Source: Nitrosomonas nitrosa (GTDB lineage Bacteria > Pseudomonadota > Gammaproteobacteria > Burkholderiales > Nitrosomonadaceae). From it: a stretch of DNA of 64,000 bases. The stretch lies in assembly GCF_003051105.1 (NCBI RefSeq), contig NZ_QAOO01000011.1:1-64000 (forward strand). The letters are read 5' to 3'. The position numbers and the translations under genes are program-made. Under the pieces are notes generated by a model, which was not told the DNA's origin, did no database searches, and worked only from the letters and a program-made list of their open reading frames with translations. Below are positions 19,915 through 34,890 of this stretch, in pieces (positions within the stretch are counted from its first letter, which is position 1; each line of letters starts with the position of its first letter).

Positions 19915-21729
19915 CTAGGCCGCAGTACGGGATGCTCTTTTGCGTTCATGCTCCAATAGGAGGCGTTTGCGAATGCGGATACTTTTGGGGGTAATTTCTA
20001 CCAGTTCGTCGTCAGTGATAAACTCGATAGCGGATTCCAGCGTTAACTGGATCGGCGGTGTCAGCGCCACGGCCTCATCATGACCCGAAGCACGAATATT
20101 GGTTAACTGTTTGCCCTTGATTGGATTGACCACGAGATCGTTGTCACGGCTATGAATGCCGATCACCATACCTTCATATAACGGATCGCCTGGACTGACG
20201 AACATGCGTCCACGCTCCTGCAGCTTCCATAATGCATAAGCAACCGCTTCACCATTTTCGGCAGAAATCAACACACCATTTCTGCGTGCAGCGATTTCCG
20301 GGCGCATCGGTGCGTATTCGTCGAAGACATGACTCATCATGCCGGTACCACGCGTCATGGTCATGAATTCAGACTGGAAACCGATCAGACCGCGCGCAGG
20401 AATCCGATAATCCAGTCTGACTCGGCCATGCCCATCCGACACCATATCGAGCAAATCACCGCGGCGTGCGCCGAGTGCTTCCATCACAGCGCCCTGATTC
20501 TCTTCGTCAACATCAACCGTAAGTACCTCAAACGGCTCACATTTTGCACCATCGATCTCGCGGATGACTACTTTTGGTCTTGAAACAGCTAGTTCATAAC
20601 CTTCGCGCCGCATATTCTCCAGCAAGATGGTCAAATGCAATTCGCCTCGTCCGGAAACCAGAAATGAATCGGTATCTGCCGTTTCTTCCAGCTTGAGCGC
20701 TACATTGGTGAGCAGTTCTTTTTCCAGACGCTCGCGTAATTGCCGGCTGGTCACGAATTTTCCTTCCTTGCCTGCAAAAGGTGAGGTATTGACTTGAAAA
20801 GTCATGGACAGCGTTGGCTCATCCACCACAGGCATCGGCAATGCTTCAGGTTGATCGAAATCCGCCAATGTCGTGCCGATACTGAGCGCATCGATGCCGT
20901 TTACCAACACGATATCACCCGCCATGGCTTCTTCCATCGGTACCCGCTCCAGGCCGCGAAAACCGAACACTTGATTGACACGCGCTTTTTTGGGCGTTTG
21001 ATCACCGGTCATGACCATCACATCCTGAGCAGGCTTGAGGCGTCCGCGCGTAATGCGTCCGATACCGATCCGGCCAACGAAGCTGGAATAATCCAGCGCG
21101 CTGATTTGCAGTTGTAGCGGCTCATCGGGATTGCCGGTGGGGGCAGGCACATGCTTGAGGATGGTTTCAAACAGCGGACGCATATCGGTGCTGGGTTGCG
21201 CCGGATCGAGCGTGGCATAACCATTCAGCGCAGATGCATAAACTACCGGAAAATCCAGTTGCTCCTCGGTCGCATTCAACTTGTCGAACAAGTCAAAGGT
21301 ATGGTTGATCACCCAATCGGGCCGTGCACCAGGGCGATCGATCTTGTTGATCACCACAATAGGCCGTAGTCCCAATGCCAGCGCTTTCTTGGTGACGAAG
21401 CGTGTTTGCGGCATGGGACCTTCCACGGCATCAACCAATAACAGCACGCCATCGACCATCGATAGAACGCGCTCCACTTCGCCACCGAAATCCGCATGAC
21501 CGGGGGTGTCGACAATATTGATATGCACCCCTTCATAATCGACTGCGCAATTCTTGGAAAAAATCGTGATGCCACGTTCGCGTTCGATGTCGTTGGAATC
21601 CATAACACGTTCGGCAATATGCTGATGTGCGGCAAATGTCCCTGCTTGATGCAGCAATTTGTCAACCATGGTGGTCTTGCCGTGGTCAACGTGAGCAATA
21701 ATGGCGATGTTACGAAGTGGGCGTGACAT
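19915..21729 (-). CDS. typA: Ribosome-associated translational GTPase TypA/BipA
   Basis: The protein has 604 residues, full length. G1 is AHVDHGKTT at ~11-19, G2 is in [12 protein letters not shown]3 is [14 protein letters not shown] and G4 is [13 protein letters not shown]-like domains III and V and the BipA-specific C-terminal domain follow, ending in a basic tail. It binds 70S ribosomes, assists 50S assembly and supports stress and cold responses. It heads a short leftward unit with the DsbA-like gene. Confidence 0.97.
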
Positions 21730-22185
21730 AAGATAAGTCCCTAAGAATTAAGCTGAAGAAATAAAAAAACATAATATTATATCAGAAAATCAGTGACATA
21801 ATTATCTTTAACCTGTTTTTGTCCACAAAAAATCTTCCGTCAAAAGAGCATGCTTCTTACGTGTTTGCACGTATTTTTCTGAAGAGCGTATTTCGATAAC
21901 CTATCGGCGGAATAGAACTTAAACCGGCATGTATCAACTTTTTGATCTCTGGCATCTGGGCTATGCTCAGGTTCGATATTGCATGTCATGACGCGATAAC
22001 CTTGCACACTTTTCCACTCATCTTGCAAAGGGAGCTATGAGCATTACGACAAAAAAGGAAAGGCAGGACAATTCGCTGTTCTTTGCAGCCTTTCAGGAGC
22101 CTGGCTGATACGAATAAGCTTCCGTTTTTCTCTTGATTCAAGGGTTGTTTTTTTGTTCGAGAATACTGGGTACGCGAGGTTAGAC
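21730..22185. other. Divergent intergenic region between typA and the sigma-54 activator gene
   Basis: It contains promoters for both sides by position, but I cannot assign them firmly. A 23-codon ORF at 22037-22110 has GGGAG before its ATG and might be a leader peptide; support is weak. No other gene or repeat is seen. Confidence 0.45.
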
Positions 22186-23568
22186 ATGGCTATCAGAGTT
22201 TGGGTTCGCTGGTTGAGTGGCTTTCAGGAACAAACTGTGCATGAAATGACTGATTGCCTGATCCGACAGGGTATCGAAGTTCAAGATCAAGATGATTATT
22301 TATCCAATCACCCTGGTGTGATTTTCAGTAATCAAGTCACGCCAGCCCTATGCGAACAACTTCGTGAGCTGAGCCGTAACGGCCAAATACGGATTCTTGT
22401 TTGTTGTGATGGGGCTATTCCCAGCAATGCCGTATGGCAGTTATTGGAAGCAGGTGCTGCCGACGTCTTGGCCAATGCGGAATGGAGCCCGCTAATCTAT
22501 GAGATCATCTCTCGTCTTCAACGCTGGGAAGCAGTCGATCGCATCGTGCATTCACCCGAGGTGCAGCATGTGCTGGTGGGAGAAAGCCAAGCTTTGAAGG
22601 CGATCCTGCGCCAAGTGGTAGAGGTGGCGCATTTTACCGATGCTTCTGTTTTGATTCTCGGTGAAAGCGGCACGGGTAAAGAGTTGCTGGCGAATCTCAT
22701 CCATACGCTGGATCCCCGCCCTGATAAAGGCGATCTGGTCATTCTAGATTGCACGACCATTGTTCCGGAGCTGTCCGGCAGCGAGTTTTTCGGTCATGAA
22801 CGAGGTGCCTTTACCGGCGCGGCGTCCGCGCGGGATGGCGTTTTCGCGCTGGCGAACGGGGGCACCCTGTTTCTGGATGAAATAGGTGAGTTGTCACTGG
22901 CATTGCAAACCCAGTTGCTGCGTGTCATCCAGGAACATACCTTTAAACGCGTCGGTGGTAACGCTTGGCAGCACACTTCTTTTCGTTTGGTGTGCGCGAC
23001 TAACCGCGATCTCTGGGCGCAAGTTCAACGCGGAGAATTCCGTGCCGACCTTTACTATCGTATCGCCAGTTATGTTTGTCAATTGCCTCCCTTGCGGGCG
23101 CGCCCTGAAGATATTCTTCCACTGGCCAACCATTTCCTGAAGACAAGCTATCCTGATCAAGCCCCCCCCGAATTGGATGCCCCCGTGCAGGAGTACCTGT
23201 TGCGCCGCGAATACCCCGGTAATGTGCGCGATCTCAAACAAGTCATCGCCCGTATGCTCTGCCGTCACGCAGGTAAAGGTGCCATCACAGTGGGGTGCAT
23301 TCCACCGGATGATCGTCCGCTGTGGGCAGAGGGCTGGCAAGAATGGCGCGATACGGGCTTCGAGCGCGCGATCCGTGTTGCATTGAATCGTGGCGTCGGA
23401 CTCAAAGCTATCAGCCGGAACACTGAAGAGACGGCATTCCGTATCGTGTTGGAGCAAGTAAACGGCAATACCCAACAGGCTGCTCAGCTCTTGGGGGTAA
23501 CAGACCGTACTGTTCAGAATTGGAAGAAAGATAGATCATCGGTCAATAAGACTGAGCAATTGTTTTGA
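22186..23568 (+). CDS. Sigma-54-dependent transcriptional activator with a degenerate receiver domain
   Basis: The protein has 460 residues from the ATG at 22186 (GAGG upstream; the TTG at 22153 adds 11 unlikely residues). Residues ~1-125 look like a receiver-type fold (IRILVCCDG, GAADVLANAEWSPL) but lack the phospho-Asp/Lys pattern. The AAA+ domain (~130-365) has Walker A GESGTGKE, the sigma-54 contact loop GAFTGA and Walker B GTLFLDEIGE. A Fis-type helix-turn-helix ends the protein (NTQQAAQLLGVTDRTVQNW). It converges on the eight-gene operon whose promoter is a sigma-54 site, so it is the likely local regulator. Its signal is unknown and probably not phosphorylation. Confidence 0.92.
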   Translation: MAIRVWVRWLSGFQEQTVHEMTDCLIRQGIEVQDQDDYLSNHPGVIFSNQVTPALCEQLRELSRNGQIRILVCCDGAIPSNAVWQLLEAGAADVLANAEWSPLIYEIISRLQRWEAVDRIVHSPEVQHVLVGESQALKAILRQVVEVAHFTDASVLILGESGTGKELLANLIHTLDPRPDKGDLVILDCTTIVPELSGSEFFGHERGAFTGAASARDGVFALANGGTLFLDEIGELSLALQTQLLRVIQEHTFKRVGGNAWQHTSFRLVCATNRDLWAQVQRGEFRADLYYRIASYVCQLPPLRARPEDILPLANHFLKTSYPDQAPPELDAPVQEYLLRREYPGNVRDLKQVIARMLCRHAGKGAITVGCIPPDDRPLWAEGWQEWRDTGFERAIRVALNRGVGLKAISRNTEETAFRIVLEQVNGNTQQAAQLLGVTDRTVQNWKKDRSSVNKTEQLF

Positions 23569-23589
23569 TGAATATAACTATTCAATAGC

Positions 23590-24366
23590 TTACCTTACAT
23601 TCGGATGTCGCTGACCAGCCGTTATCGCCTTGCGTCGCCAAGCCGTGCTGATCAAATTTTCAAAATTTCTTCCCAGAATCAAGCTTTCCTGGAAGGGCGG
23701 CAAGCGCAATGCCTTGATTTTGGCAAGTTCAACTCCCGGGTGTAGCCAAGGCCCATCCGAGCCAAATAAAAGCTTAGTCGCTCCTGCCCGTTTGACGGCT
23801 TGTTCCAGCAGATCAAAGCGCCGCACGCCAGCCGTATCCGCGTACATATTCGGATGGCGCACCAGTTGGTCAATCATGGCCAATTGAGCGCGCCAGTCAT
23901 CGGCAAAGCTGCCAAGATGTGGAATGATAAAGTTGACGTCTGGATATTCCTGGGCCAGCAGTTCACAGACGGATACTTCACCCGCGACATCGTACAGTAC
24001 CGGTAAAGCATAGGCCCGAGCGGCTGCACAGATCTCGCGTGTGATAGCCGCATCATGGCGATGAACCTTGATGCCGACGAATCCGTAGCGTTTAACGGCT
24101 ATGCTGACCCGTTCGTGCACATGCCCCCGGTCTCGCTCGGCATGCACGAAGGCAAAACCGTAAAAGCGCTCAGGCTTGCTCGCGACAATGCGCGCCACTT
24201 GTTGGTTGGCGACGGCATAGTTCGAATGAAACGCAGAAAACAGCACTGTGCGATGAATCCCTGCTGCCATAGCGCGGCGCAAATAGTCCTGCAAGGGGGC
24301 TCGGGTGTCCCACGGCCCGGTTAAACCATCGCCCATACCGGCGTGGCAGTGGCAATCGATGATCAT
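23590..24366 (-). CDS. Amidohydrolase_2-type metal-dependent hydrolase
   Basis: The protein has 258 residues from the ATG at 24366; the open frame to 24471 overlaps the upstream gene and is rejected. TIM-barrel metal ligands are visible: DCHCHAGMG at 4-12 (HxH), a central KVHRHD, IPHLGSF with the next His, and LLFGSDGPW with the last Asp. Such enzymes hydrolyse or decarboxylate small aromatic or lactone substrates; the substrate is unknown. The ATG overlaps the protease stop as ATGA, so it is the last gene of the sigma-54 operon. Confidence 0.85.
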   Translation of the reverse strand: MIIDCHCHAGMGDGLTGPWDTRAPLQDYLRRAMAAGIHRTVLFSAFHSNYAVANQQVARIVASKPERFYGFAFVHAERDRGHVHERVSIAVKRYGFVGIKVHRHDAAITREICAAARAYALPVLYDVAGEVSVCELLAQEYPDVNFIIPHLGSFADDWRAQLAMIDQLVRHPNMYADTAGVRRFDLLEQAVKRAGATKLLFGSDGPWLHPGVELAKIKALRLPPFQESLILGRNFENLISTAWRRKAITAGQRHPNVR

Positions 24367-25763
24367 AAGGCGACGCCTCTCTTCGCGTCGTAGTCCTCGT
24401 TTATCCAGTCGCGTATCTGCCTGACCACCTGCCGCGTTAGCAAGACGCCGATTTTGGGGTCGCTCGTACAATCTTCGCCGACCTGTTGCGTCGTGCAGTC
24501 ATCCAGGGCAGGGGGTGTTTCACAATTACCGCAACCGCCATGGTGAACTGCGATCAGATACCGTCTCTTTGATTTTTCATCCCAATACCAAACCGGAGAC
24601 CCGCTGATGCCTTGGGAGGTATCGGCGGCATAGGTAATGAGTTGACGGACTGGCCGTTTCCTCGCAGTTGGACTCGCACTTCTGACCATGGCTGGGACAA
24701 GTATAGGCCGACCGTTGTCATGTTTTCGATAACCGCAAAGATTGAGTGCTTTCCCAGTCAGTGTCTGGATGCCGTGTTTGGGTAAGGCTTCCACGGGCAG
24801 CAATAAAGTGTCGTCTACTTTCCCTTTATTGCCCCAGAAGCTCAGCATCTTATTCTTTAGTTTGCCAAACCTTCGATATGCGATGGGTGGATTGGGCAAC
24901 CTGATTAGGCCGAAATCGAAGCGTGGGTCGAATTGGCTGGACCGCCAATGGGGGTGTGATTGCCAATCGATGGGCTTTGTCTTTGACCACGAGAAGGGAG
25001 TCCGCAAGCCATCAGCGCCGGCAGCAACATTGATGGTGAGTACTTCGGCTGGCGTAGTGGGATCGTTTGCCCAATTCGCGTCAAAAACATGCGCGGCCGT
25101 GAGCACGTGTCGCGGGCCGATGAGCGTGCCGGTCGCAAATGATTGTTTGATCTTCCCATCTGGCTGTTTTAAAAACACCCGCAAGCGGCATATCCATCTG
25201 AACGGCACTTTCGTCATATCGATATGACGTCGCGCCGACAAGTGCCCAAAAGCGCTTTCTTCGCCCCATTCCCGTTGGGGCTGACGCGGGTCGACCGGTT
25301 CGTCAAAACTGTCGACCGCGGTACCGAGACCCAGGAAGGGGTGAATATACGTCACCGGCGGTATCCAGATCGTGGCGAAGCATTTCCTGTCACCACAGGT
25401 GAAACGGGGCAAGAACGAAATCACGCCTTTCCCGAAATATTTGCGTTCGAAAGCATTTCCGGGTGGCCGCCAGAATTTCATATTCAATGGATGACTGTTG
25501 ATGGTTTGTGCACGCTTCAGGCGTTCCGCGCCAGACTTGAGACCATACGCGCGTCCCGCCGTTTCGAGAAGCCCGCCTCCACCATACTTGATTTTGTAAA
25601 AGTGGCCTGGAACGGGGGTATCGCTCATCAAGGAATTTACTTGCTCAAACTGGAAGCCGTCACTCGCGATCCCTGGCCCTGGAGGGTTGAACGAACCGAA
25701 CGGCCCGCCCGTTTTACCTGGCGGATTTTCCAGTCCCAATTCCACCAACCCCAAGGTGTTCAT
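24363..25763 (-). CDS. Trypsin-like serine protease with a LysM-like N-terminal segment
   Basis: The protein has 466 residues. Residues ~54-100 (FYKIKYGGGGLLETAGRAYG...INSHP) resemble a divergent LysM-type module. The protease domain spans ~195-440: catalytic His in VLTAAHVF (~225), Asp in DFGLIRL (~283) and Ser in GISGSPVWYW (~388), as in V8/trypsin-like endopeptidases. A Cys-rich stretch follows. No Sec signal peptide is visible, which is unusual for this family. The start overlaps the upstream stop as ATGA. Processing of other products of this operon is a testable guess. Confidence 0.85.
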   Translation of the reverse strand: MNTLGLVELGLENPPGKTGGPFGSFNPPGPGIASDGFQFEQVNSLMSDTPVPGHFYKIKYGGGGLLETAGRAYGLKSGAERLKRAQTINSHPLNMKFWRPPGNAFERKYFGKGVISFLPRFTCGDRKCFATIWIPPVTYIHPFLGLGTAVDSFDEPVDPRQPQREWGEESAFGHLSARRHIDMTKVPFRWICRLRVFLKQPDGKIKQSFATGTLIGPRHVLTAAHVFDANWANDPTTPAEVLTINVAAGADGLRTPFSWSKTKPIDWQSHPHWRSSQFDPRFDFGLIRLPNPPIAYRRFGKLKNKMLSFWGNKGKVDDTLLLPVEALPKHGIQTLTGKALNLCGYRKHDNGRPILVPAMVRSASPTARKRPVRQLITYAADTSQGISGSPVWYWDEKSKRRYLIAVHHGGCGNCETPPALDDCTTQQVGEDCTSDPKIGVLLTRQVVRQIRDWINEDYDAKRGVAL

Positions 25764-27703
25764 TTCAGCTCCGGAGTCTCGTCAGAGCAGAACACTCCGC
25801 ACGAGAACGATCCAGTCCCGCTCATGCTCGTACGTTTGCAAGGGCTCCATCTTTGAGACTTCGGAAGCCATACCCAGCAACGCGTGACGACCGTTCCGCT
25901 CAACCCGCTGGAGGGACCAGTAAATTGCTGACACATGCCCTGGCAAAAGTTTTTCGCGTTCGCTGCCGTCATAAGTGAAGGGCCCTGTTCCTGGAGACGT
26001 CGAACATTACCCTTCTTCGGACGTAACCAGACGTCGAAATAGTACCAATTTTTCTGATCACGGTGTGTTTCGAACTCGTCGGCACTGCTTTCGGCATTGG
26101 ACGCACTGAATGGAGATTCCGGCTCGAATTCATCTAACATGGCCACTTCTCTTAACCCACTTGAATAATCTTGCGATGTGGCGGAATTCATCAAACTGCT
26201 CGCCGGTGCTCTCAGCACAACGATCTTGTCGCCACGGCGCAGCCATCGGCCATGTTGCGCTGCTGTGCCAGGCATCCCGAATCGGCCGGACTCACTCAAG
26301 TGAAGATAAGGCAGATGTTTCTGAGCCGCATTGATAATCGCTTCGTTAACGGCCATTTCCGCATCGATATCGGGCGACGTCAGCGCTGCTTGGCGCATTG
26401 CTGTGCCTGCAATACGGACAAAGCGCCGCGCCCTTTCCAATTCTGCTTCTTCCGCGTTCAAGCCGCTGACTTCAAGTTCCAGTGCTTTGCTCAGCGCTGA
26501 TCCCACGGCGCCACCGATTGCCGTACCGACGCCCGGTATTGGAATGAAGGAGCCCAACACTTTGCCCGCGACTGGCAGCGCTACTTTTGCCAGGGATTTC
26601 AGCCCTTTGCCTAGGACAGGCAGTACTCTTTTGCCGATGAAGCGGCCTGCTTTCTTGAGGCCCCGGCCTATGCCTTTGAACAACTTGCCAAGAAACTGAT
26701 CCAGTTCTTCCTCGCTGGAAATCGAGAGCAACTCCGCAGCGAGTTCGATTTCTTCCGATTCACTGAACGGGCTTGCCAGCGCCAATTCGAGCTCGCGATC
26801 ATTGGTAACCAGACCCGTTGGATTGAGGGTGGCCCGAAGACTCTCTTCGATCGATTTGTGTTGAGGCGTTGGATACCAGCAAAAAGCATAACTGTCGGGA
26901 TCAAGACCATGGGATCTGATTTGTCGATGGTGCACTCTCATTCGTACATACAGATTCCCGGTCTGGCCCACATAGCCGATGTGGCCACTGGGCGAACGAT
27001 TGCGGAAAATGAGGAGATATACCCCCCCTTGTTGAGGTGCATTGTTCCATTGCGACAAGGGATAACATCGTTTGCTGTCCCATAAGGTCTGGTGTTTTGC
27101 TTTCATGCGGCGGACGAGCGTTTGAAAATGGGCTTGAAAGTCTGCAGGCAATTCCATTTCCAGCCACTCGTTCTCGTAACCCGTGCCCAATTCCATTTCC
27201 GCTGCTGATAGTTCGCCACCCCGCCTTTCACAAGCGGATCTCAATGCTTCTTCGGTATCGGGACCGGCAATGCCGGTTGTCCTGAGTCCCTGCTGCTGTT
27301 GAAAGCGCCTGATGGCACTGCGCGTTTCCGGCCCTATGGTGCCGGTCACCGGCAATTGCGTGTCCAGCGCCTGATTTAGGCAGTCTTGCAGCCAGCGCAC
27401 TCGCTCTGAGCCCACCGGTCCCGACTCGATCGGATAGGGTTCGCTCGTGATACCATAAGGTTCGCGTATCACCCCCCAAGGCCGCCGCCGTCCCCTCGGA
27501 GCAGGACGGGGCCGGGCAAGCGGTGGGCGTTGACTTCCTTTCGGGCGCAATCCCAGCCGAGCACGCGAGCCTGCGTATCGACGCCCGCCACCATAAGCGC
27601 CCCGCCGCCCCCGTTCGCCTTCCTCTTCCTCTTCAAATAATTCACTCTGCAATTCGGGTGCGATTTCGAAAGGTATCGTTTCAAAGCTGAATTCTTGGTT
27701 CAT
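25760..27703 (-). CDS. Multidomain protein: peptidoglycan-binding, GIY-YIG-like, glycine-zipper module
   Basis: The protein has 647 residues. After an acidic then Arg/Gly/Pro-rich N-terminus (1-95) comes a PG_binding_1 domain (~103-157, with GTIGPETRSAIRRFQQQQGL). A GIY-YIG-like fold follows at ~226-290 (GGVYLLIF, HIGYVGQTGNLYVRMRVHHR). Next is the module shared with the two small operon proteins: EEELDQFLG (331-339), a Gly/Ala-rich hydrophobic zipper (~350-405), ERARRFVRIAG and GRWLRRGDKIVVL (485-497). The last ~130 residues are Cys- and Trp-containing and unrecognised. AAGAGGTG supports the ATG. No signal peptide is visible. Function unknown. Confidence 0.85.
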   Translation of the reverse strand: MNQEFSFETIPFEIAPELQSELFEEEEEGERGRRGAYGGGRRYAGSRARLGLRPKGSQRPPLARPRPAPRGRRRPWGVIREPYGITSEPYPIESGPVGSERVRWLQDCLNQALDTQLPVTGTIGPETRSAIRRFQQQQGLRTTGIAGPDTEEALRSACERRGGELSAAEMELGTGYENEWLEMELPADFQAHFQTLVRRMKAKHQTLWDSKRCYPLSQWNNAPQQGGVYLLIFRNRSPSGHIGYVGQTGNLYVRMRVHHRQIRSHGLDPDSYAFCWYPTPQHKSIEESLRATLNPTGLVTNDRELELALASPFSESEEIELAAELLSISSEEELDQFLGKLFKGIGRGLKKAGRFIGKRVLPVLGKGLKSLAKVALPVAGKVLGSFIPIPGVGTAIGGAVGSALSKALELEVSGLNAEEAELERARRFVRIAGTAMRQAALTSPDIDAEMAVNEAIINAAQKHLPYLHLSESGRFGMPGTAAQHGRWLRRGDKIVVLRAPASSLMNSATSQDYSSGLREVAMLDEFEPESPFSASNAESSADEFETHRDQKNWYYFDVWLRPKKGNVRRLQEQGPSLMTAANAKNFCQGMCQQFTGPSSGLSGTVVTRCWVWLPKSQRWSPCKRTSMSGTGSFSCGVFCSDETPELK

Positions 27704-27726
27704 GATTCACCTCTTAAAAATGTGGT

Positions 27727-28854
27727 TTATCCTCTTGGCTGGCAGGCCAAAACTGGCCGCCCCTTGGGTGCTTCAATATTTGTGGGCGCTTCGATTTCAT
27801 GAGCTAATGCATCCAGCATGTCGATGCATTGATCGATCTCCTCGGCACGATGCCGTGCCGTGAGCAAAAAACTTAAACGGGCTGCTCTATTATGGCGTGG
27901 CCGGGTTAATACGGTTTGCACACCCCACTGCGCAAGACGTTGATGCAGCCGTATCGCAGCTTTTTCCGTGATGCCGCACAAGGTCTGCACGGGAAACCAA
28001 CCGCCCGTGGAAGACCATCCAATGCCCGCCAATCCACTGCGGAATTGCCCCACTCGCTGTGCCAGCCTTTGTCTCAGCAGATTACCCTGAAGTCGGTTGA
28101 CGGCCAACGCATGAATGGCGGCCTGGATGACAGCCACCGAAGGTGGACTGCTATGGACGCGCGTGTCGCTCGCGGCCGTAAAGCGCTTGAGCAAACGGTC
28201 ACTCCCAGTCAGCACTGCTACCGGCACTCCCAATCCTTTGGCCAGTGAAGAACCCACCAGAATGTCCGGGCCGGTATGCCCACTCCAGCGCAAAATACCT
28301 CCCCCACCAAGACCATAGGGGCGATGCAATGCGGGGGCTTCTCCCAAGACACCGAGTGCCTGCGTGTCGTCCAGCACTAGGAGACCGTCGAAACGCCTGA
28401 CGATGTCCAGATAGTCACCGATAGGCGCTGCCGTACCACAGGCGGGACAGAAGCCATTGGCGACGACCACTGGATATTTCCTGTTACGCGCCTGTCGCGT
28501 AATTTTGGTCAAAAGCGCATTGGCGTCGTGGTGGCGAAAGGGGTGAATAGCTACCCCTCTTGCACTTAAACGCACCATGCCCCAGCGAGCAATCGCATAA
28601 GTACCCTCATCCAGATACAACGTCACAGGTTGTCGGCACAGCATCCCGAACAAATCCCAGAACAGATGCAAGGTAGAAGGCATCAGCACGCCTCGCTCGC
28701 ACCCTTGCAATCGTGCCAGTTTCTGAGCGACTTCCGCAGCGCCAGGCGGCTCGGCTAGTGCAGCCGGCATACCCAAGGTGAGCTGCTGCCAAGGCTGCAG
28801 CAGCCGGCTTGGGTGATGCAATCCAAGGTAGAGTGCCGAGGTGAAGTCGATCAT
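27727..28854 (-). CDS. Alpha-oxoamine synthase-like PLP enzyme (fold type I)
   Basis: The protein has 375 residues. It resembles 8-amino-7-oxononanoate synthase/KBL-type enzymes: FDGLLVLDDTQALGVLGE carries the PLP-pyridine Asp and the DD/His-loop equivalent, and the probable Schiff-base Lys is in GSSLAKGLGVP (~230). LYLGLHHPSRLL replaces the usual YLGL start. The family condenses an amino acid with an acyl-CoA and releases CO2. Lack of any other biotin genes and its position inside the sigma-54 operon argue against a biotin role. It may make a small lipid or modify a partner. The substrate is unknown. Confidence 0.8.
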   Translation of the reverse strand: MIDFTSALYLGLHHPSRLLQPWQQLTLGMPAALAEPPGAAEVAQKLARLQGCERGVLMPSTLHLFWDLFGMLCRQPVTLYLDEGTYAIARWGMVRLSARGVAIHPFRHHDANALLTKITRQARNRKYPVVVANGFCPACGTAAPIGDYLDIVRRFDGLLVLDDTQALGVLGEAPALHRPYGLGGGGILRWSGHTGPDILVGSSLAKGLGVPVAVLTGSDRLLKRFTAASDTRVHSSPPSVAVIQAAIHALAVNRLQGNLLRQRLAQRVGQFRSGLAGIGWSSTGGWFPVQTLCGITEKAAIRLHQRLAQWGVQTVLTRPRHNRAARLSFLLTARHRAEEIDQCIDMLDALAHEIEAPTNIEAPKGRPVLACQPRG

Positions 28855-28865
28855 GACGGCGCATC

Positions 28866-30989
28866 TCAGCTTGCCCGTTGTTGGCTCGCCAGCCGCTTCT
28901 GCAACAACACCGATGGCAAGGTGGAATCCACGCGTGCATTCACTGTTGGATCAGCCGATAGATCCACGCCCGTTGCAGCACGGTAAGCATGGATATAGCC
29001 TTGCACCTGGGGTCGGAAGAACCGTGCCCAATTGAGTGCCTTCACCGGTTCGAATTCATCGCTCCAGTGGCCCCAGCGGATGGAAAGCAGCAGCTGCTCG
29101 CCGAACATGCCCAGGTTGCGGAAGTGCAGCACGCTGGTGTCGGTCCATCCCTGTAGTTTCTTCATGGCATCGACACGATCCATCCACGGCTCGGGGTAAG
29201 CCACCATGATGCGGGTTGGCAGCAATTCCCGGAATTCGGGGCGTGCGAGTAGCCACTGCTGCATCAGCATTTCGATGCGAGCAGTCGATGGCAAATCACC
29301 GAACTGGTTGTGCGCACCCTGGGAAAGAATCAAATGCACTTCCTTGAGGGCATTGAGCACCGGGAAGGCATCCGCCTTGACCGTGGTATCGTCATCCTGC
29401 TTATAAAAGACGGTGCACAAGCGCAACAAGTGGTGGAAGGCTTCCAGGAATTTCGAACGTGTGTCCACCGGGCGAAAATCCTGCACGGCTTTGCCCTCTA
29501 GCCGCAAACCGTAATGATGATCGTATTCGTAGTTGCGGCGACTGATGGTCAGCCGATGTTGCTCATCCTGAATGTAGCTCCAGAGCAAATTGTTGAGTGG
29601 GCGCAGAGGATCCATTTCTAAGTTGGCGAGCGGATCCTGCATGGACGAGCGTATATTCTGAAAACGTCGAGACAGCGCATTCATCGTTTGCACCAGCATG
29701 CCCTCTTCGTGCCAGTAAGACCAAATCAGCTCCAAAAAGCAAGGGTTGGCGAGTTTTTCTTGCAATAAACCGAAGCAATTATCCAATTCCCTGCCGGGTA
29801 CGGCGTCTTCAAATGTGCCTGATTTAATCGGGATATCAGGGAGCTTCCGTCTGATAATGGCCAGGTAGGGTAATACATCGCCATTGCCATCGACGCCAAC
29901 CAGGTAATCGTTGTTGAAGGCGTTGCGTAGCCCGTTCTGTGGAATCGGTAGGTCTCGTCTATCGAGATAGGCGTTATCGCTATCCGTGTCGAACGGTTGC
30001 AATTCATCCTGAAGAACGCCGCAATTCACCATTACGAACGCTTCAGTTGCCGCTTTTACGACGCGATAGGTATCGGAATCAGTAAAGGACAGGAAACGTC
30101 TGCTGATAAGCTTTCGATATTCGCTATCCTTGAGAGGGAAACGATTGGCTTCAAAACCCGGCGCAGGCAGCTTGCCGCCACAGAAAATCCAGTCCATGAA
30201 ACTGAGGTACTTGTTAAACGAAAGCGCGTCCGTACTATTGCGGATCGCTGTCCAGAACGCAGTGTCCTCCGTGAAAGAAGTCTCGGTACGCGTCATGGTG
30301 GTGATCGTTTTGATTTCTCCGGAAATGGCCTGCCTGGGTGGATCCTCGGAGTTAACCGTACCTGGAACATCCATTTCCATCGCGGGGCCACTCGCTTCGC
30401 CATCAGCGGGCAATCCTGTTACTGACAGCAGTATTCTGTTGATACCCGCCTCGGTGGGAGTAAACAGTATTTCCCGGTTATCGGCATCCACCAGCGTCAA
30501 AGTGGCCTTGCCGTCGGGAGCACGCCAGCGCAGCTTGCTGATGCGGTTCTTCATGACATTCTCATCGCCAATATCCGCGATCAGGTGCAGAGGGCTGCCT
30601 ACTGTTGTTTGATTGCAATCAATCAATGTGCAGTCAGCCAGTGCCTTCTTCGGATTGATCTTCACATTGATGGGATCCTCGAAACACACGGATGAGGTGC
30701 ATCCGCATTCCACTACCACAGTTTTCGGATCAAGATCGTTGAAAGATTTGCAGGAGAGGGTGTAAGTCCCTGCTGGAACGCCGGTAAAGACGCAGCATCC
30801 ATTCTTGTCGGTGTATGCAGATTGGAATAGCTCTCTTGCTTGTGCAGATTTTTTAGCCGCGCCGGGTTTTTCCATGGCGTAGCCTTTTTCTATGGTAACA
30901 AGCGCCCCGCGGATCGGTCTTTTATCTTCACAATTGCCCGTTACCTGAACTGTAATGGTGCCGGCTGATGAATCTTCTATGGTTTTCAT
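28866..30989 (-). CDS. Large protein with a carboxypeptidase-regulatory-like N-terminal domain
   Basis: The protein has 707 residues. Residues ~10-95 form a Cys-containing prealbumin-like/CarboxypepD_reg-like domain (GALVTIEKGY...GCCVFTGVPAGTYTLSC). Residues ~115-225 may be an Ig-like fold (LHLIADIGDE, ILFTPTEAGINRILLSVTG). The remaining ~470 residues are mostly helical with no family I recognise. The start overlaps the upstream stop by ATGA and has an AGGAG site, so it is co-translated with the HExxH protein. No signal peptide or membrane helix is apparent. A scaffold or cell-surface-like architecture is an inference. Confidence 0.75.
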   Translation of the reverse strand: MKTIEDSSAGTITVQVTGNCEDKRPIRGALVTIEKGYAMEKPGAAKKSAQARELFQSAYTDKNGCCVFTGVPAGTYTLSCKSFNDLDPKTVVVECGCTSSVCFEDPINVKINPKKALADCTLIDCNQTTVGSPLHLIADIGDENVMKNRISKLRWRAPDGKATLTLVDADNREILFTPTEAGINRILLSVTGLPADGEASGPAMEMDVPGTVNSEDPPRQAISGEIKTITTMTRTETSFTEDTAFWTAIRNSTDALSFNKYLSFMDWIFCGGKLPAPGFEANRFPLKDSEYRKLISRRFLSFTDSDTYRVVKAATEAFVMVNCGVLQDELQPFDTDSDNAYLDRRDLPIPQNGLRNAFNNDYLVGVDGNGDVLPYLAIIRRKLPDIPIKSGTFEDAVPGRELDNCFGLLQEKLANPCFLELIWSYWHEEGMLVQTMNALSRRFQNIRSSMQDPLANLEMDPLRPLNNLLWSYIQDEQHRLTISRRNYEYDHHYGLRLEGKAVQDFRPVDTRSKFLEAFHHLLRLCTVFYKQDDDTTVKADAFPVLNALKEVHLILSQGAHNQFGDLPSTARIEMLMQQWLLARPEFRELLPTRIMVAYPEPWMDRVDAMKKLQGWTDTSVLHFRNLGMFGEQLLLSIRWGHWSDEFEPVKALNWARFFRPQVQGYIHAYRAATGVDLSADPTVNARVDSTLPSVLLQKRLASQQRAS

Positions 30990-32347
30990 GTCATTCTCCT
31001 GAGTGAATAATTAATAAAACGGTTTTGCTGAAACTGAGCCGTTACCGGTAATTGGCGAGGGCCGGATCGCATCGAGCAGTCAGCGGCTGTTTGCAAGGTG
31101 CTGCTGAGTGCCCAGTGGGTCAGCAATTTACCCAGAATGGTGCTTTCCTGTTCCGGGCTCAGGCGACTGTCAGCACGCGCCTGGCCGATCACGGCAAAGA
31201 CCAAGGTAGGGGGGGCGCGGTACATTTTCGACGGATCTTGTTGCCAGAGCCTGAAGAGCGCTTGCAAATGATGGGGTTGACGGTTCCATACCTGTAAGGC
31301 TTCAGCCAAACTGCGGCCCCGCAGGCATTTTGGCCGGTGGTTGATCAATAGTGCGACAAAGCCAGGTAACGTTGCCTGTAAGGCGTCATAGTTCTGCCGT
31401 TGTGCAGCATTCAGCCCGCTTAGCGGGTAAAACGCCTCCCACAATCTGGCCAAGCGTTCCCATTGCGGGTGGGGATAGAGCGCCTCACCTATGGCGCAAC
31501 TCAGCTTGACGCGAATCCAAGGTGGAGGGTGCGGATCATCCCGATTCAAGTGAAACACGAAGGCGCGCGGCAAGCTGACAACCCCCATGAGGCCCAGGGT
31601 AGATGCGATGCCGATACGGGAAACCGACCAAAGGTCAGCCACGATTTCAGAAATCCACCGCTCCCATAACGACCAGACGGCACTGTGCGAGCCGCTACCG
31701 CGTTGCATACCCTGCAGAACGGGCCGCAGTGAATTCGCGAGATTGAGCAGGGCGGCAGCCTGATGACCGACCTCGTGAATCAGCGAAGAGGCGATGCCAC
31801 TGCCAATCATCCGTTCGCGCGGCACGCGTATCACCGCTACCGGATTTTCACCACCGCCTGGCAAACGTGTTCGTGCACGTCGGATAGCGGCTCCGGCGCC
31901 ACGATCGAGATAGCAGATGACAGGCGGCACCTCGTAATAATGACCGGGTAGTGCCAGAGCATCGGCAGAAACGACATCCAGTCCAGAAAGCCAAACGCCG
32001 GTTTCATGCTCGCTGCGTTGCGTCAACACATCGTTGAACAAATCAAACTGGGTCAGCACGGTATTGAACCTGAGCCGCAGAAGCGAAAACAGTCGCTGCG
32101 CTTGCGCTGGGCTGGCGCTTTGAGCGGATGGGCTATGCAACCAGCGGATATAGCGCTCAATCAATCTCCTGAGCTCCCGCCGGCCTTTTGTGAGATGCTG
32201 TTCAATACTGATTTGTGCTGCTGGTAAGATAGCCGCCGCCGGCACCATCGTTTCATGCAATGCGAAAGGCTTGATGCGTTTCAATCGGGTCATTAAGGCG
32301 CGAGCTTCCTGCTCGAGCATCCATGTGGCGTAGGAAACGGCGGCCAT
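30986..32347 (-). CDS. Putative zinc metallopeptidase-like protein (HEVGH)
   Basis: From the ATG at 32347 the protein has 453 residues, starting 5 bases after the preceding stop; the longer frame to 32431 overlaps the upstream gene. The motif SSLIHEVGHQAAAL at ~187-200 is a gluzincin-like HExxH, and a downstream SEIVADLW about 65 residues later could give a third ligand (Glu/Asp). Otherwise it is helical and not recognised. No signal peptide is seen. It could be a protease acting on the glycine-zipper proteins encoded just upstream, or a catalytically silent structural relative. Confidence 0.72.
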   Translation of the reverse strand: MAAVSYATWMLEQEARALMTRLKRIKPFALHETMVPAAAILPAAQISIEQHLTKGRRELRRLIERYIRWLHSPSAQSASPAQAQRLFSLLRLRFNTVLTQFDLFNDVLTQRSEHETGVWLSGLDVVSADALALPGHYYEVPPVICYLDRGAGAAIRRARTRLPGGGENPVAVIRVPRERMIGSGIASSLIHEVGHQAAALLNLANSLRPVLQGMQRGSGSHSAVWSLWERWISEIVADLWSVSRIGIASTLGLMGVVSLPRAFVFHLNRDDPHPPPWIRVKLSCAIGEALYPHPQWERLARLWEAFYPLSGLNAAQRQNYDALQATLPGFVALLINHRPKCLRGRSLAEALQVWNRQPHHLQALFRLWQQDPSKMYRAPPTLVFAVIGQARADSRLSPEQESTILGKLLTHWALSSTLQTAADCSMRSGPRQLPVTAQFQQNRFINYSLRRMT

Positions 32348-32352
32348 GATGG

Positions 32353-33039
32353 TCAAGCCCCAAACAAAATGATTTTGTTGCCGCGACGCAACCAACGTCC
32401 GCTTTTTGCACCGCGTCCACAAGTGGGGCAAGCTGTCCCCATCATGCCGCCAGGCGTGACGGTAGGGGCACTACTTGTCAGGCCTGGCGCAAGCTGACGG
32501 GCGGCAGCCAGTACGGCCGATTGCGCCACCGCTCTCGGATTGGCCGTCGGCGGTGCGGAGGCTGCGTTTTTAGCGGCCGTACCGGCAAATTGAACAAATC
32601 TTTTTGCGGCTTCGTATTCTTGGTCTTCCAGACTCAATCCTTCCAACTCCAAGCCAAAGATTCGGCCGGCAGTGGACGCAACCTGGCTGCCTAATTTGGC
32701 GCCGCTACTGCCCCCGAAATAGCCGCCTATGGCGCTGCCAACCATGGGGAAGGCTTTTTTGGCAGCGCCTTTCAACAGTCCGCCGAGTTGTTGACCTACC
32801 GGTGACTTGATAAACTGGCCCGCAGCGCGGCCAGCTCTTTTAATGAGGTTGCCCAAGAACTGATCCAGTTCAGCTTCGCTATTGATCTCCAATAGCTCGG
32901 CTGTGAGTTCCATGGCTTCTGCTTCATTAAAAACACCTGCTTCAGCACCCCATTCGGCTTCATCGTATTCGTATTGTTCGTGTTCATAGCTCTCCAACTC
33001 AGAGTCGGTTTCCAGAGTGGTGCGGTCGATATCGTGCAT
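32353..33039 (-). CDS. Glycine-zipper protein with EAELDQFLG and GRWLRRG motifs (paralogue 2)
   Basis: The protein has 228 residues. It has an acidic Glu/Tyr-rich N-terminus (ELESYEHEQYEYDEAEWG), the motif EAELDQFLG at 55-63, and a Gly-zipper hydrophobic stretch (~95-130, GSAIGGYFGGSSGAKLGS). A conserved helix AAKRFVQFAGTAAKNA follows. A CPTCG motif at ~204-208 is absent from its partner. It ends with GRWLRRGNKIILFGA at 214-228. Paralogue 1 upstream has exactly the same length with the C-terminal motif at the same position. GAGGAGG precedes the ATG. Zipper segments can insert into or pack within membranes; the role here is unknown. Confidence 0.82.
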   Translation of the reverse strand: MHDIDRTTLETDSELESYEHEQYEYDEAEWGAEAGVFNEAEAMELTAELLEINSEAELDQFLGNLIKRAGRAAGQFIKSPVGQQLGGLLKGAAKKAFPMVGSAIGGYFGGSSGAKLGSQVASTAGRIFGLELEGLSLEDQEYEAAKRFVQFAGTAAKNAASAPPTANPRAVAQSAVLAAARQLAPGLTSSAPTVTPGGMMGTACPTCGRGAKSGRWLRRGNKIILFGA

Positions 33040-33078
33040 GGTGTAATCCTCCTCGAAAAATATATGACTAGGTAGGGT

Positions 33079-33765
33079 TCAGGCATTGAGGATGATGATG
33101 TTGCGGCCTCGCCGAATCCATCGCCCACTACTCCGGCCCTTGCCCATCGATGCACTTGTACTTGTGCCAGCACCTAACAAGGCAGGCGCAAATTTTCGCG
33201 CGGCTTTAGCGGCGGCTGCTTGAGCTGCTCGTCGTGGATCGGTAGACGCAGGTGCTGAAACCGCATTTTTGACGGTATTTGCGGCAAACCGGACGAATTG
33301 CTTGCCGCCTTCGAATTCACGGTCTTCCTGGCTGAGCGCTTCTAGTTCAAGTCCCAGCGCCTTGCCTGCCGCTGAGGCAAGACCACTGCCAATCTTGGCG
33401 CCCAACGGGCCGCCGAAATAGGTGCCCAAGGCGCCACCTGCAATCGGTAAGGCTTTTTTGGCCACACCTTTGAGCACCCCGCCTACCGCCCGTCCGATGG
33501 GCGATTTCACCACCTTCTTGATGGCGCTCCCCGCCTTCTTGATCAATTTGCCTAGAAAGAGATCGAGTTCCTCTTCGTTGGTGACTTCCATGAGCTCGGC
33601 AGTCAACTCCATTACCTCGCTCTCGTTGAATACTTCGCCCCATTCGGCTTCTTCAAACTCGAATTGCTCGAATTGTTCATTCTCAAACTGTTCGCTCTCG
33701 TATTGTTCGCTCTCGAAGCTGCTCATTTCAGGATCGAATTCGAATGTGTTTTCGCTTTCATACAT
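33079..33765 (-). CDS. Glycine-zipper protein with EEELDLFLG and GRWIRRG motifs (paralogue 1)
   Basis: The protein has 228 residues from the ATG at 33765, with GGAGGA eight bases upstream; the TTG at 33780 overlaps that site and is rejected. The N-terminus is a repetitive acidic aromatic tract (ESEQYESEQFENEQFEQFEF). Then come EEELDLFLG (64-72), basic KKAGSAIKKVVKSP, a Gly-zipper (~107-135, GGALGTYFGGPLGAKIGSG), an Ala-rich helix and the terminal GRWIRRGRNIIILNA. It is the first gene after the sigma-54 promoter, so it may be the most highly expressed product. Self-assembly, membrane insertion or a processed secreted peptide are all possible. Confidence 0.82.
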   Translation of the reverse strand: MYESENTFEFDPEMSSFESEQYESEQFENEQFEQFEFEEAEWGEVFNESEVMELTAELMEVTNEEELDLFLGKLIKKAGSAIKKVVKSPIGRAVGGVLKGVAKKALPIAGGALGTYFGGPLGAKIGSGLASAAGKALGLELEALSQEDREFEGGKQFVRFAANTVKNAVSAPASTDPRRAAQAAAAKAARKFAPALLGAGTSTSASMGKGRSSGRWIRRGRNIIILNA

Positions 33766-33907
33766 GGCTGATTCCTCCAATTGTCAGGTTTGCCGTCACA
33801 GTCCGGCCGATGGCTGAATCACTCATCGGGACCGGTGCTTACGCGTTTTGGGTTTGCTCTCGTCAGGGCAACCCGCATAACTTTGGTTGCCTTCACAATA
33901 AATAGAA

Positions 33908-33922
33908 GCAAGTAGCGTGCCA
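33908..33922 (-). promoter_or_regulatory. Sigma-54 (-24/-12) promoter
   Basis: On the minus strand the sequence is TGGCAC-GCTAC-TTGC, an exact match to the core TGGCACG-N4-TTGC with the required GG-N10-GC spacing. Transcription would start near 33896, leaving a leader of about 130 bases before the first glycine-zipper gene. The only sigma-54 activator seen in the window converges on the other end of this operon. Confidence 0.88.
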
Positions 33923-34281
33923 GAAATAGTTGTAACTCGACTTTCCGGCTGGTAAGTTGATCAATTCATTGGAAATGTTGTGAAATAATCGATGAGTTAC
34001 TGGTCATGGCAGAAAAGTGGAAACCTATGCGTTGGCGAAGCAGGTTTCGCTCGATGCCATAAATAGGGTTTGCAAGACGAAAAATATTTCGGCAAAGTCG
34101 GATTGGGTCGATTAGATATGCAGCCGTTACGCGAGATGGCGTATGCTGTAGTTTGTTTTGGCAAAAATCCCCATTGGAGAAAGTGCGCGCACACACGCAG
34201 TGATGACCCGCACAGGGTTCGATCATAGGGATCGTTCAGAGCAAGCAACGTGTATTTACTTCATATTCAGGAAACGAAAAG
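33923..34281. other. Upstream region shared by the sigma-54 operon and ribE
   Basis: Activator binding sites for the leftward sigma-54 promoter are expected here, but no convincing inverted repeat was identified by eye. No FMN riboswitch core is seen before ribE. No ORF with a credible start was found. Confidence 0.4.
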
Positions 34282-34890
34282 ATGTTTACAGGTATTATCG
34301 AAGCCGTCGGAGAGATTAAGCAGATTACCCCGAAAGCCAATGCGCTCAGCCTGCATATTGCACCAGGCAAATTGGATATGAGCGATGTCAAGATCGGTGA
34401 CAGTATTGCGGTCAGCGGCGTTTGTTTGACGGTCACTTCACTGGCCGACAATAGGTTCACCGTCGATGTTTCTGACGAGACGTTACGCTGTACGCACGGC
34501 CTGAATAGCGTCCACAATCTCGTCAATCTGGAAAAAGCGATGCGGCTATCGGATCGCTTGGGAGGACATTTGGTAAGTGGCCACGTGGAGGGTGTCGGTG
34601 AAGTGATTCAATTCGAGCCGGTTGGCGAAAATATCCGTTTTGTGATCAAATCGCCTGCAGCACTGCTAAAATATATTACTGTGAAAGGATCGCTAACGGT
34701 CAACGGTGTCAGTCTGACGGTCAACCAGATCGATGGCGACCACTTGGAGATCAATCTCATCCCCCATACCTTAGCCGAAACGAATCTGAAACATCTCAAA
34801 CCGGGTGAGCGAGTCAACCTGGAATCGGATATGCTGGCACGTTATGTCGCGCGTCTGATGGATGTGGCTTCACCAACCCTAAGCAAGTAA
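34282..34890 (+). CDS. ribE: Riboflavin synthase, alpha subunit
   Basis: The protein has 202 residues with the two-barrel repeat of the family: MFTGIIEAVGEI at the start, and internal symmetry between SVCLTV-type (VSGVCLTVTS) and VNGVSLTVNQ segments. The dismutation of two 6,7-dimethyl-8-ribityllumazines gives riboflavin. It is followed after 7 bases by ribBX and then ribH, a standard riboflavin run. A ribD gene, often adjacent, is not in the window; the sigma-54 operon occupies the upstream side. Confidence 0.96.
   Translation: MFTGIIEAVGEIKQITPKANALSLHIAPGKLDMSDVKIGDSIAVSGVCLTVTSLADNRFTVDVSDETLRCTHGLNSVHNLVNLEKAMRLSDRLGGHLVSGHVEGVGEVIQFEPVGENIRFVIKSPAALLKYITVKGSLTVNGVSLTVNQIDGDHLEINLIPHTLAETNLKHLKPGERVNLESDMLARYVARLMDVASPTLSK

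Follow-up and report, generated by a model that had tools for sequence, protein, structure and literature searches.

An operon with a sigma-54-type promoter, headed by an undescribed glycine-zipper module family, may break bacterial cells

What is the function of an operon in which a single unnamed protein module is encoded three times? The question is raised by the first 64,000 nucleotides of contig NZ_QAOO01000011.1 of Nitrosomonas nitrosa (forward strand, assembly GCF_003051105.1; this whole stretch is referred to below as the window), in which two small proteins and one large protein of one minus-strand operon carry the module. Fifty-two other loci, spread over at least seven phyla, also contain the operon, headed by one or more module genes; these are the loci in named genomes, and together with the window they form the set of 53 loci described here. 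Because a sigma-54 switch is apparent and exchangeable wall-cutting cargo is frequent, the operon may encode a hitherto undescribed machine that breaks bacterial cells. No description of it was found in the open-licence PubMed Central (PMC) literature among the matches listed.

The module family

Module protein C (33079..33765, minus strand) consists of 228 residues and comprises an acidic N-terminal part, an EEELD helix, a basic amphipathic stretch, a glycine zipper, two helices, and a GRWIRRG hairpin, with GRW at residue 214. Its ATG lies at position 33765 and its stop codon ends at 33079; the mechanically called open reading frame (ORF) begins five codons earlier at a TTG, and a GGAGG stands before the ATG. 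Module protein B (32353..33039, minus strand) also has 228 residues with GRW at residue 214, and its N-terminus reads MHDIDRT. The third copy occupies residues 309–499 (26207..26779, minus strand) of a 647-residue cargo protein (25760..27703, minus strand), with GRW at residue 485. This is in agreement with an earlier interpretation of the letters alone (the sequence-only reading), which had assigned the module to three proteins of one operon, two of them 228 residues long. The three copies can be aligned, one of the points on which that interpretation had been staked beforehand. Core identity to copy C is 54% for copy B and 38% for the third copy, and the local alignment scores among the three are 514, 314, and 316, versus maxima of 78, 71, and 62 in 300 composition-preserving shuffles per pair (Z 37 to 58). 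The domain makeup proposed for the third protein held in part: a C-terminal extension to residue 647 is present, and the upstream GIY-YIG-like stretch (26909..27028, minus strand) scores only below the Pfam cut-off (16.4 vs 22.6 bits). The same protein contains a clear PG_binding_1 domain (residues 99–154; 27242..27409, minus strand; 58.5 bits in Pfam) that the sequence-only reading had not mentioned.

The anatomy of the family was derived from an alignment of 70 members, which are related to each other, so the counts are not independent. The order of elements proposed from the three copies (acidic N-terminal part, EELD helix, basic stretch, zipper, helices, GRW hairpin) recurs across these members. 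Residues 1–60 have a median charge of −14 and are negative in all 69 members for which this was calculated, and the basic segment (residues 73–107) has a median charge of +7 and a charge of at least +2 in 70 of 70. The G-x3-G pattern occurs 405 times in the 70 members (shuffle mean 170, maximum 206), and G-x7-G, which has the same period, occurs 257 times (shuffle maximum 180); glycine spacings of x0, x1, x2, x4, x5, and x6 are within or below the shuffle ranges. Beyond the zipper there are two further helices, commonly followed by the C-terminal GRWxRRG hairpin. In the wider family, the motifs named in the sequence-only reading proved common rather than universal, with a loose GRW in 89 and an EELD.FLG-like motif in 107 of 123 ORFs. 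The AlphaFold model of the module places helices at residues 48–59, 64–78, 89–105, 108–116, 120–136, 146–169, and 177–192, and the hairpin at residues 215–226.

Of the 53 loci, 39 have one or more module ORFs that start with MHDIDR or a near variant, a pattern absent from all 4258 other ORFs. The module proteins therefore probably fall into two or more old types, and window protein B, by its N-terminus, is of the MHDIDR type. As a separate observation, divergently transcribed proteins in three loci (L017:7756-9426, L026:8061-9371, L035:8058-9683; minus strand) contain module-like pieces followed by repeated glycine/alanine-rich units, and the first of them had no Pfam match at E 0.01.

The proposal of a new family was borne out by the absence of a Pfam or NCBIfam match at cut-off for the two small proteins: B and C match Pfam below the cut-off only, and in NCBIfam the same is true of C, while B has no match. 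The 70 members, scanned singly against Pfam, gave scattered weak matches, most often to TRI4_N (15 members) and Gly-zipper_Omp (six members, E up to 0.1, best 8e-4). The latter is a resemblance of composition. GxxxG periodicity is common to the module and the Pfam glycine-zipper families, and to our knowledge those families have neither the acidic part nor the EELD helix and GRW hairpin. PADLOC returned no match for the two small proteins, and PHROGs returned a weak tape-measure-like match and one match of unknown function for C and none for B. Sequence searches of the PDB with the module produced weak rows only; the profile search gave eight, mostly designed helical proteins, with a best E of 7.6e-4.

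Core genes, switch and cargo

The sequence-only reading had not extended to the wider operon, its apparent sigma-54 control, or its cargo, which make up the greater part of the picture. The usual gene set consists of the module gene(s), a gene for a protein with an HExxH motif, a gene for a protein of ∼710 residues with the working name CPreg, usually a BioF-like enzyme gene, exchangeable cargo, and often genes for an amidohydrolase and a sigma-54 activator. Profiles detected the module in all 53 loci, HExxH and CPreg proteins in 48 each, the BioF-like enzyme in 43, the amidohydrolase in 31, and the activator in 26; these are lower bounds, since the loci are cut. All loci without an HExxH gene (L028, L029, L037, L043, L054) or without a CPreg gene (L028, L029, L034, L037, L054) hit a contig edge there. 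For the BioF-like gene, the absence seems genuine in L027, L040, and L047, and possibly also in L045. Gene calls in high-GC loci were partly in the wrong frame at first, and the later correction covers the core genes only. Genes for M20-like peptidases, a name that reflects our own reading of their sequences, are found in eight loci.

In the window, the HExxH protein (30986..32347, minus strand, 453 residues) carries HEVGHQ at codons 31760-31777 and an E-x3-D motif (EIVAD) at codons 31634-31648. An HExxH motif with a downstream glutamate in E-x3-D is characteristic of gluzincin metallopeptidases, and H190, E191, H194, E233, and D237 (numbering of window:30989-32344) are invariant in 26 aligned sequences, including two of 23% identity. 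By these residues the protein appears gluzincin-type metallopeptidase-like. It had no match in Pfam, NCBIfam, the PDB, PADLOC, or PHROGs at the limits used. CPreg (28866..30989, minus strand, 707 residues) has a weak, below-cut-off carboxypeptidase-regulatory-like N-terminal part, followed by a C-terminal part of ∼480 residues that is highly conserved and mostly helical. The model of the latter has a mean predicted local distance difference test score (pLDDT) of 61, and a fold search with it gave no match at E 0.001 or better; weak rows for tryptophan dioxygenase (E about 1 to 4) were rejected as evidence. The PDB profile search with CPreg gave one row at E 0.3. The BioF-like enzyme (27727..28854, minus strand, 375 residues), a pyridoxal phosphate (PLP) enzyme, scores far under the NCBIfam cut-offs. 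Alpha-oxoamine synthases of the BioF type are recognized by the PLP lysine, an aspartate, and a substrate histidine. The lysine and aspartate are kept in 28 of 28 sequences, and the usual histidine position is occupied by glutamine in 26 and leucine in two, so by its residues the enzyme would not qualify as an alpha-oxoamine synthase.

The operon is apparently switched on through sigma-54, as judged from promoter and activator sequences. A −24/−12 site, TGGCAC-N5-TTGC, lies upstream of module protein C (33907..33922, minus strand; weighted score 14/15 against a −24/−12 consensus). In 35 of 51 loci, a similar site (TGGCAC-N5-TTGCA-like) with a score of at least 13/15 precedes the first module gene, as against 2.7% of mononucleotide shuffles and 5.7% of 964 control windows from the same loci; a score of at least 14 was reached in 24 of 51 loci and in 0.8% of control windows. 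Two of the 53 loci (L032, L054) were left out of the scan for too little upstream sequence, and the 51 include two cut loci (L028, L043) in which the first module gene is not the operon start. No site was detected in L015 and L016. In L022 the site falls inside an over-extended ORF, probably also the cause of the score of 11 in L023. The activator, of the bacterial enhancer-binding protein type, is found at the operon's far end in most of the loci that retain this end, and 24 of the 27 activator ORFs contain GAFTGA. In the window, the activator gene (22153..23568, plus strand) carries GAFTGA and faces the operon from its far end; its AAA and helix-turn-helix parts (residues 136–459) match PADLOC RtcR_PspF2 with an E value of 3.2e-90. 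Two points set it apart from RtcR/PspF-type activators: the match leaves out the N-terminal sensor part, and the operon is not an RNA-repair operon.

In seven actinobacterial loci (L036, L037, L038, L041, L049, L052, L053), the sigma factor gene itself adjoins the operon. Each of these genomes has exactly one PF04552 match, and coordinates and the profile of these ORFs place this sole detected rpoN just upstream of the module genes in 7/7, at a distance of 105 to 201 bases in six loci and 800 bases in L041. The promoter score is 14 in six of the seven (L052 scores 12 at another place), and the activator is present in six (in L037 the contig ends before it). The RpoN DNA-binding domain is over cut-off in all seven genomes, and both the core-binding and DNA-binding domains are over cut-off in the four scanned for both (L036, L038, L041, L052). 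The AID scores 33.6 in L052 (cut-off 23.8), below cut-off in L036 (19.7) and L038 (19.3), and has no match in L041. These results suggest that the divergent actinobacterial rpoN genes serve this operon. RpoN is rare in that phylum, not absent, because PF04552 is over cut-off in nine of 296 genomes of the phylum of L036 (Arthrobacter sp. Leaf137), that genome included. The other eight, with E values of 1e-36 in one and no higher than 1e-50 in seven, resemble ordinary RpoN more closely than the operon-linked proteins do. A 2025 survey (PMC12316311) reports RpoN candidates in four of 173 Actinomycetota, three of them not bona fide and one misclassified, and concludes that the phylum is effectively without functional RpoN, with a Modestobacter candidate among those set aside; it also names rpoN genes of Alloactinosynnema and Citricoccus. 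Our reading rests on the loci described here and not on the survey's own strains. Whatever the function of the operon, these loci give the divergent sigma factors an assayable job and bear on the published conclusion of the survey.

The kind of cargo was assessed by scanning 30 hand-picked (not randomly sampled) downstream proteins with Pfam. PG_binding_1 is over cut-off in 18 of the 30 and exactly at cut-off in one more, and a murein hydrolase domain is over cut-off in nine. Amidase_2 is found in cargo of L009, L012, L032, and L047, M74 in L016 and L028, VanY in L027, M23 in L010, and Glucosaminidase together with DUF2272 in L035. Other cargo domains are DUF2272 alone (in another L028 protein), Beta-lactamase2 (L040), OmpA (L017, L032, L076), and trypsin (L047); the GIY-YIG-like stretches in the window, L012, and L032 are all under cut-off. 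In the remaining proteins no enzyme domain was recognized above its cut-off. The peptidoglycan-binding domain is often joined to an amidase, VanY, M74, or glucosaminidase domain, and fusions of the module to cargo proteins place it next to domains that vary. No obvious signal peptide was seen: none of the ten correctly placed module and cargo N-termini contains a 12-residue stretch with a mean hydropathy >0.62 (a further 6 of the 16 N-termini checked had been set at a wrong internal methionine and are uninformative). An N-terminal tag (hydrophobic-x-hydrophobic, then P-F or E-F) is present in 18 of 48 cargo ORFs versus 14 of 423 flanking ORFs; these sequences are not independent, and some of the 48 are doubtful as cargo.

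What the operon may do

The reading that we tentatively favour, and that in our judgement falls just short of being probable, is that of a lytic or antibacterial operon, switched through sigma-54, in which the module proteins form the core that acts on membranes and the cargo cuts murein. An envelope or other stress signal would reach the activator and the promoter would open. The acidic N-terminal part would keep the basic amphipathic stretch and the glycine zipper in a soluble, harmless state until processing, perhaps by the HExxH protein, frees the module for membrane insertion and oligomerization. The cargo enzymes would then pass or follow the module and cut the wall; the HExxH protein may process module or cargo, and the end result would be cell breakage. 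The broken cell may be the producer itself, for release or altruistic lysis, or a neighbour. We lean slightly to the producer because no immunity genes were noticed, with no systematic search made. Possible, although less likely than not, is a wider form of the claim: a portable, undescribed cell-breaking machine in which old types of glycine-zipper protein silenced by their acidic half (one type with the fixed start MHDIDR), a dedicated metalloprotease, and further unnamed core proteins release exchangeable, signal-peptide-free murein hydrolases and nuclease-like domains under an activator and promoter of its own. In Arthrobacter-like and related Actinobacteria it would also bring a divergent sigma-54 of its own, and would be a native sigma-54 regulon in lineages whose RpoN candidates were set aside as non-functional.

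Several observations speak against a lytic operon. No murein hydrolase domain is over cut-off in 21 of the 30 downstream proteins scanned (e.g. L017, L021, L046, L048, L074), and the window cargo itself has a peptidoglycan-binding domain and a sub-threshold GIY-YIG-like stretch, with no recognized murein hydrolase. No classical transmembrane helix is predicted for the module, because no 19-residue window reaches a mean hydropathy of 1.6 in any of the 70 members (highest 1.59; no dedicated predictor was run), and the only helix predicted is an amphipathic or oligomerizing one. The AlphaFold model has a mean pLDDT of 74.8, and of only 44–58 in residues 111–140, with low confidence at the zipper turn; a fold search with it found no PDB match at E 0.001 or better, and a second look gave a best Z of 4.0. 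The apparent lack of signal peptides comes from hydropathy only, as no signal-peptide predictor was run, and the cargo tag pattern was drawn up post hoc, a stricter first version being found in 3 of 48 cargo and 2 of 423 flanking ORFs. What CPreg, the BioF-like enzyme, and the amidohydrolase do is not explained by a lytic function. Such a function is argued from sequence and models, and many of these facts are also compatible with ordinary remodelling of the envelope.

In one alternative, which we regard as rather unlikely, the module serves delivery or scaffolding: the glycine zipper would assemble a secreted particle or tag cargo for an exporter without damage to membranes, and the cargo would act on neighbours. 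In its favour, the module is fused to cargo next to domains that vary, the N-terminal tag is often common to cargo, and the MHDIDR start is kept across phyla while the rest of the acidic part varies, like a recognition tag. However, no known secretion apparatus was recognized in the operon. The sheath family of the type VI secretion system (T6SS; VipB) is absent from the own genome of the window and present in 4 of 15 operon genomes, all Oxalobacteraceae; PF06841, the tube family, was found in four of the 15, among them the own genome, on contigs other than that of the operon, and in none of 14 control genomes. In this sample of 15 genomes, eight have neither, and with no sheath or tube genes in the operon a T6SS or extracellular contractile injection system was rejected as the carrier. 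Separately, the T4 gp19-type tube proteins of the own genome (G000:C5:133175, G000:C27:16427), which occur without a VipB match, perhaps belong to another contractile system or a prophage.

We find it quite improbable that the operon serves envelope stress or remodelling, i.e. a sigma-54-controlled repair or recycling of the cell's own wall, with trimming by the murein enzymes, reuse of fragments through the M20-type peptidase and the amidohydrolase, and membranes stabilized by the module. The M20-like genes (8 loci) and amidohydrolase genes (31/53) would suit such recycling, and the RpoN survey finds wall and envelope functions enriched among predicted sigma-54 targets in some classes (PMC12316311). 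Against it stand the patchy presence of the operon (found in 4 of 398 phylum genomes and 19 of 100 family genomes), the difference in cargo between loci, the variation of flanking genes within one genus, a genome without the operon in which the two flanking genes stand 140 bases apart, and wall enzymes that, where examined, have no obvious signal peptide. That the similarity of the modules merely reflects low-complexity acidic and glycine-rich sequence is hardly conceivable. The acidic part and zipper are indeed compositionally biased, but the alignment Z scores against composition-preserving shuffles already contradict this explanation, and the same module stands with the same neighbours in 52 other loci.

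The cell-breaking reading can also be set beside known systems. A phage holin–endolysin module combines a membrane-active small protein with a murein hydrolase, and the operon would resemble it in pairing a proposed membrane-active small protein with murein hydrolases without visible signal peptides (found in nine of the 30 downstream proteins scanned); the window cargo also has matches to PHROG endolysins, which are due mostly to its PG_binding domain. Unlike such modules, the operon has no holin-like transmembrane helix, is apparently under sigma-54 control, and contains further core genes. In polymorphic toxin systems, an immunity gene adjoins each toxin; here adjacent immunity genes were not noticed, with no systematic test made, and gene maps show no recurrent small gene behind the cargo, where small ORFs and immunity genes were not systematically searched for. 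A constant part with varying domains is common to both, as the module or PG_binding_1 is combined here with Amidase_2, VanY, M74, Glucosaminidase, OmpA, and others; in polymorphic toxin systems (PMC3482391), the changing effector domains likewise include some that act on peptidoglycan, and peptidoglycan-binding domains are present in some architectures. In contrast to those systems, the constant genes here are unnamed families, and Pfam recognized no trafficking domain in the 30 proteins scanned; the module may be an unrecognized one.

Three core families that span at least seven phyla without a Pfam or NCBIfam match over cut-off are encoded in an operon whose switch and type of cargo are both clear, and the system is therefore directly testable. 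If the operon breaks cells, it would represent a new route by which wall-cutting enzymes without signal peptides reach their target.

Distribution, distant relatives and further features of the window

The spread of the operon is patchy and mostly follows phyla. The HExxH protein served as the marker for the genome counts given above, both of which include the own genome, and two of the 19 family genomes have only a distantly similar protein. Rampant exchange between phyla was rejected: a tree of 48 HExxH rows, which left out copies from genomes without a name and the two distant relatives, needs seven phylum-label changes with a minimum of six, and Actinomycetota form one clade. Module matches are found on four large plasmid records. 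The riboflavin synthase gene and typA flank the operon in the window and in genome G468. These two genes are 140 bases apart in G407 (C1:717240-719776), which has no HExxH match, versus window positions 21729-34282; they are far apart in the other seven operon-free genomes tested, so one clean empty site was found among eight. In G474 the operon is at a different place. A phage origin was rejected, as module protein C had no match in phage records and none of 92 pattern matches in viral contigs was confirmed as an HExxH relative.

The two distant relatives, in genomes G447 (L070) and G476 (L071), have HExxH proteins of 23% identity beside acidic proteins in which very basic or glycine-zipper stretches were noted by eye. 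In L070, one protein consists of an acidic stretch followed by a long Lys/Arg-rich stretch, and an M74 cargo carries PG_binding_1. L071 contains an M20-like gene and an amidohydrolase gene, and one of its acidic proteins is a weak module hit (E 1.5e-5). These loci support the theme of an acidic-plus-basic amphipathic protein with a protease-like protein and, in L070, a wall enzyme. Neither sister operon (L071:6628-16065, L070:5086-13235) gave a CPreg profile hit.

Two further genes of the window operon lie between the cargo gene and the activator. One encodes a trypsin-like serine protease by Pfam (24363..25763, minus strand), whose N-terminal part is unnamed, and the other an amidohydrolase (Amidohydro_2 in Pfam; 23590..24471, minus strand), whose true start is probably inside the ORF. 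The N-terminal stretch of the former is shared with L033:16362-16843 (PGxFYKIxY..GGLLxTAGRAYGL, then HPxNxxFW); it had no Pfam match and appears to be an unnamed LysM-like domain. The G+C content is 0.54–0.56 in the operon stretch (window 24001-34000) and 0.50–0.52 just outside, and 0.55 is also reached at 40–42 kb.

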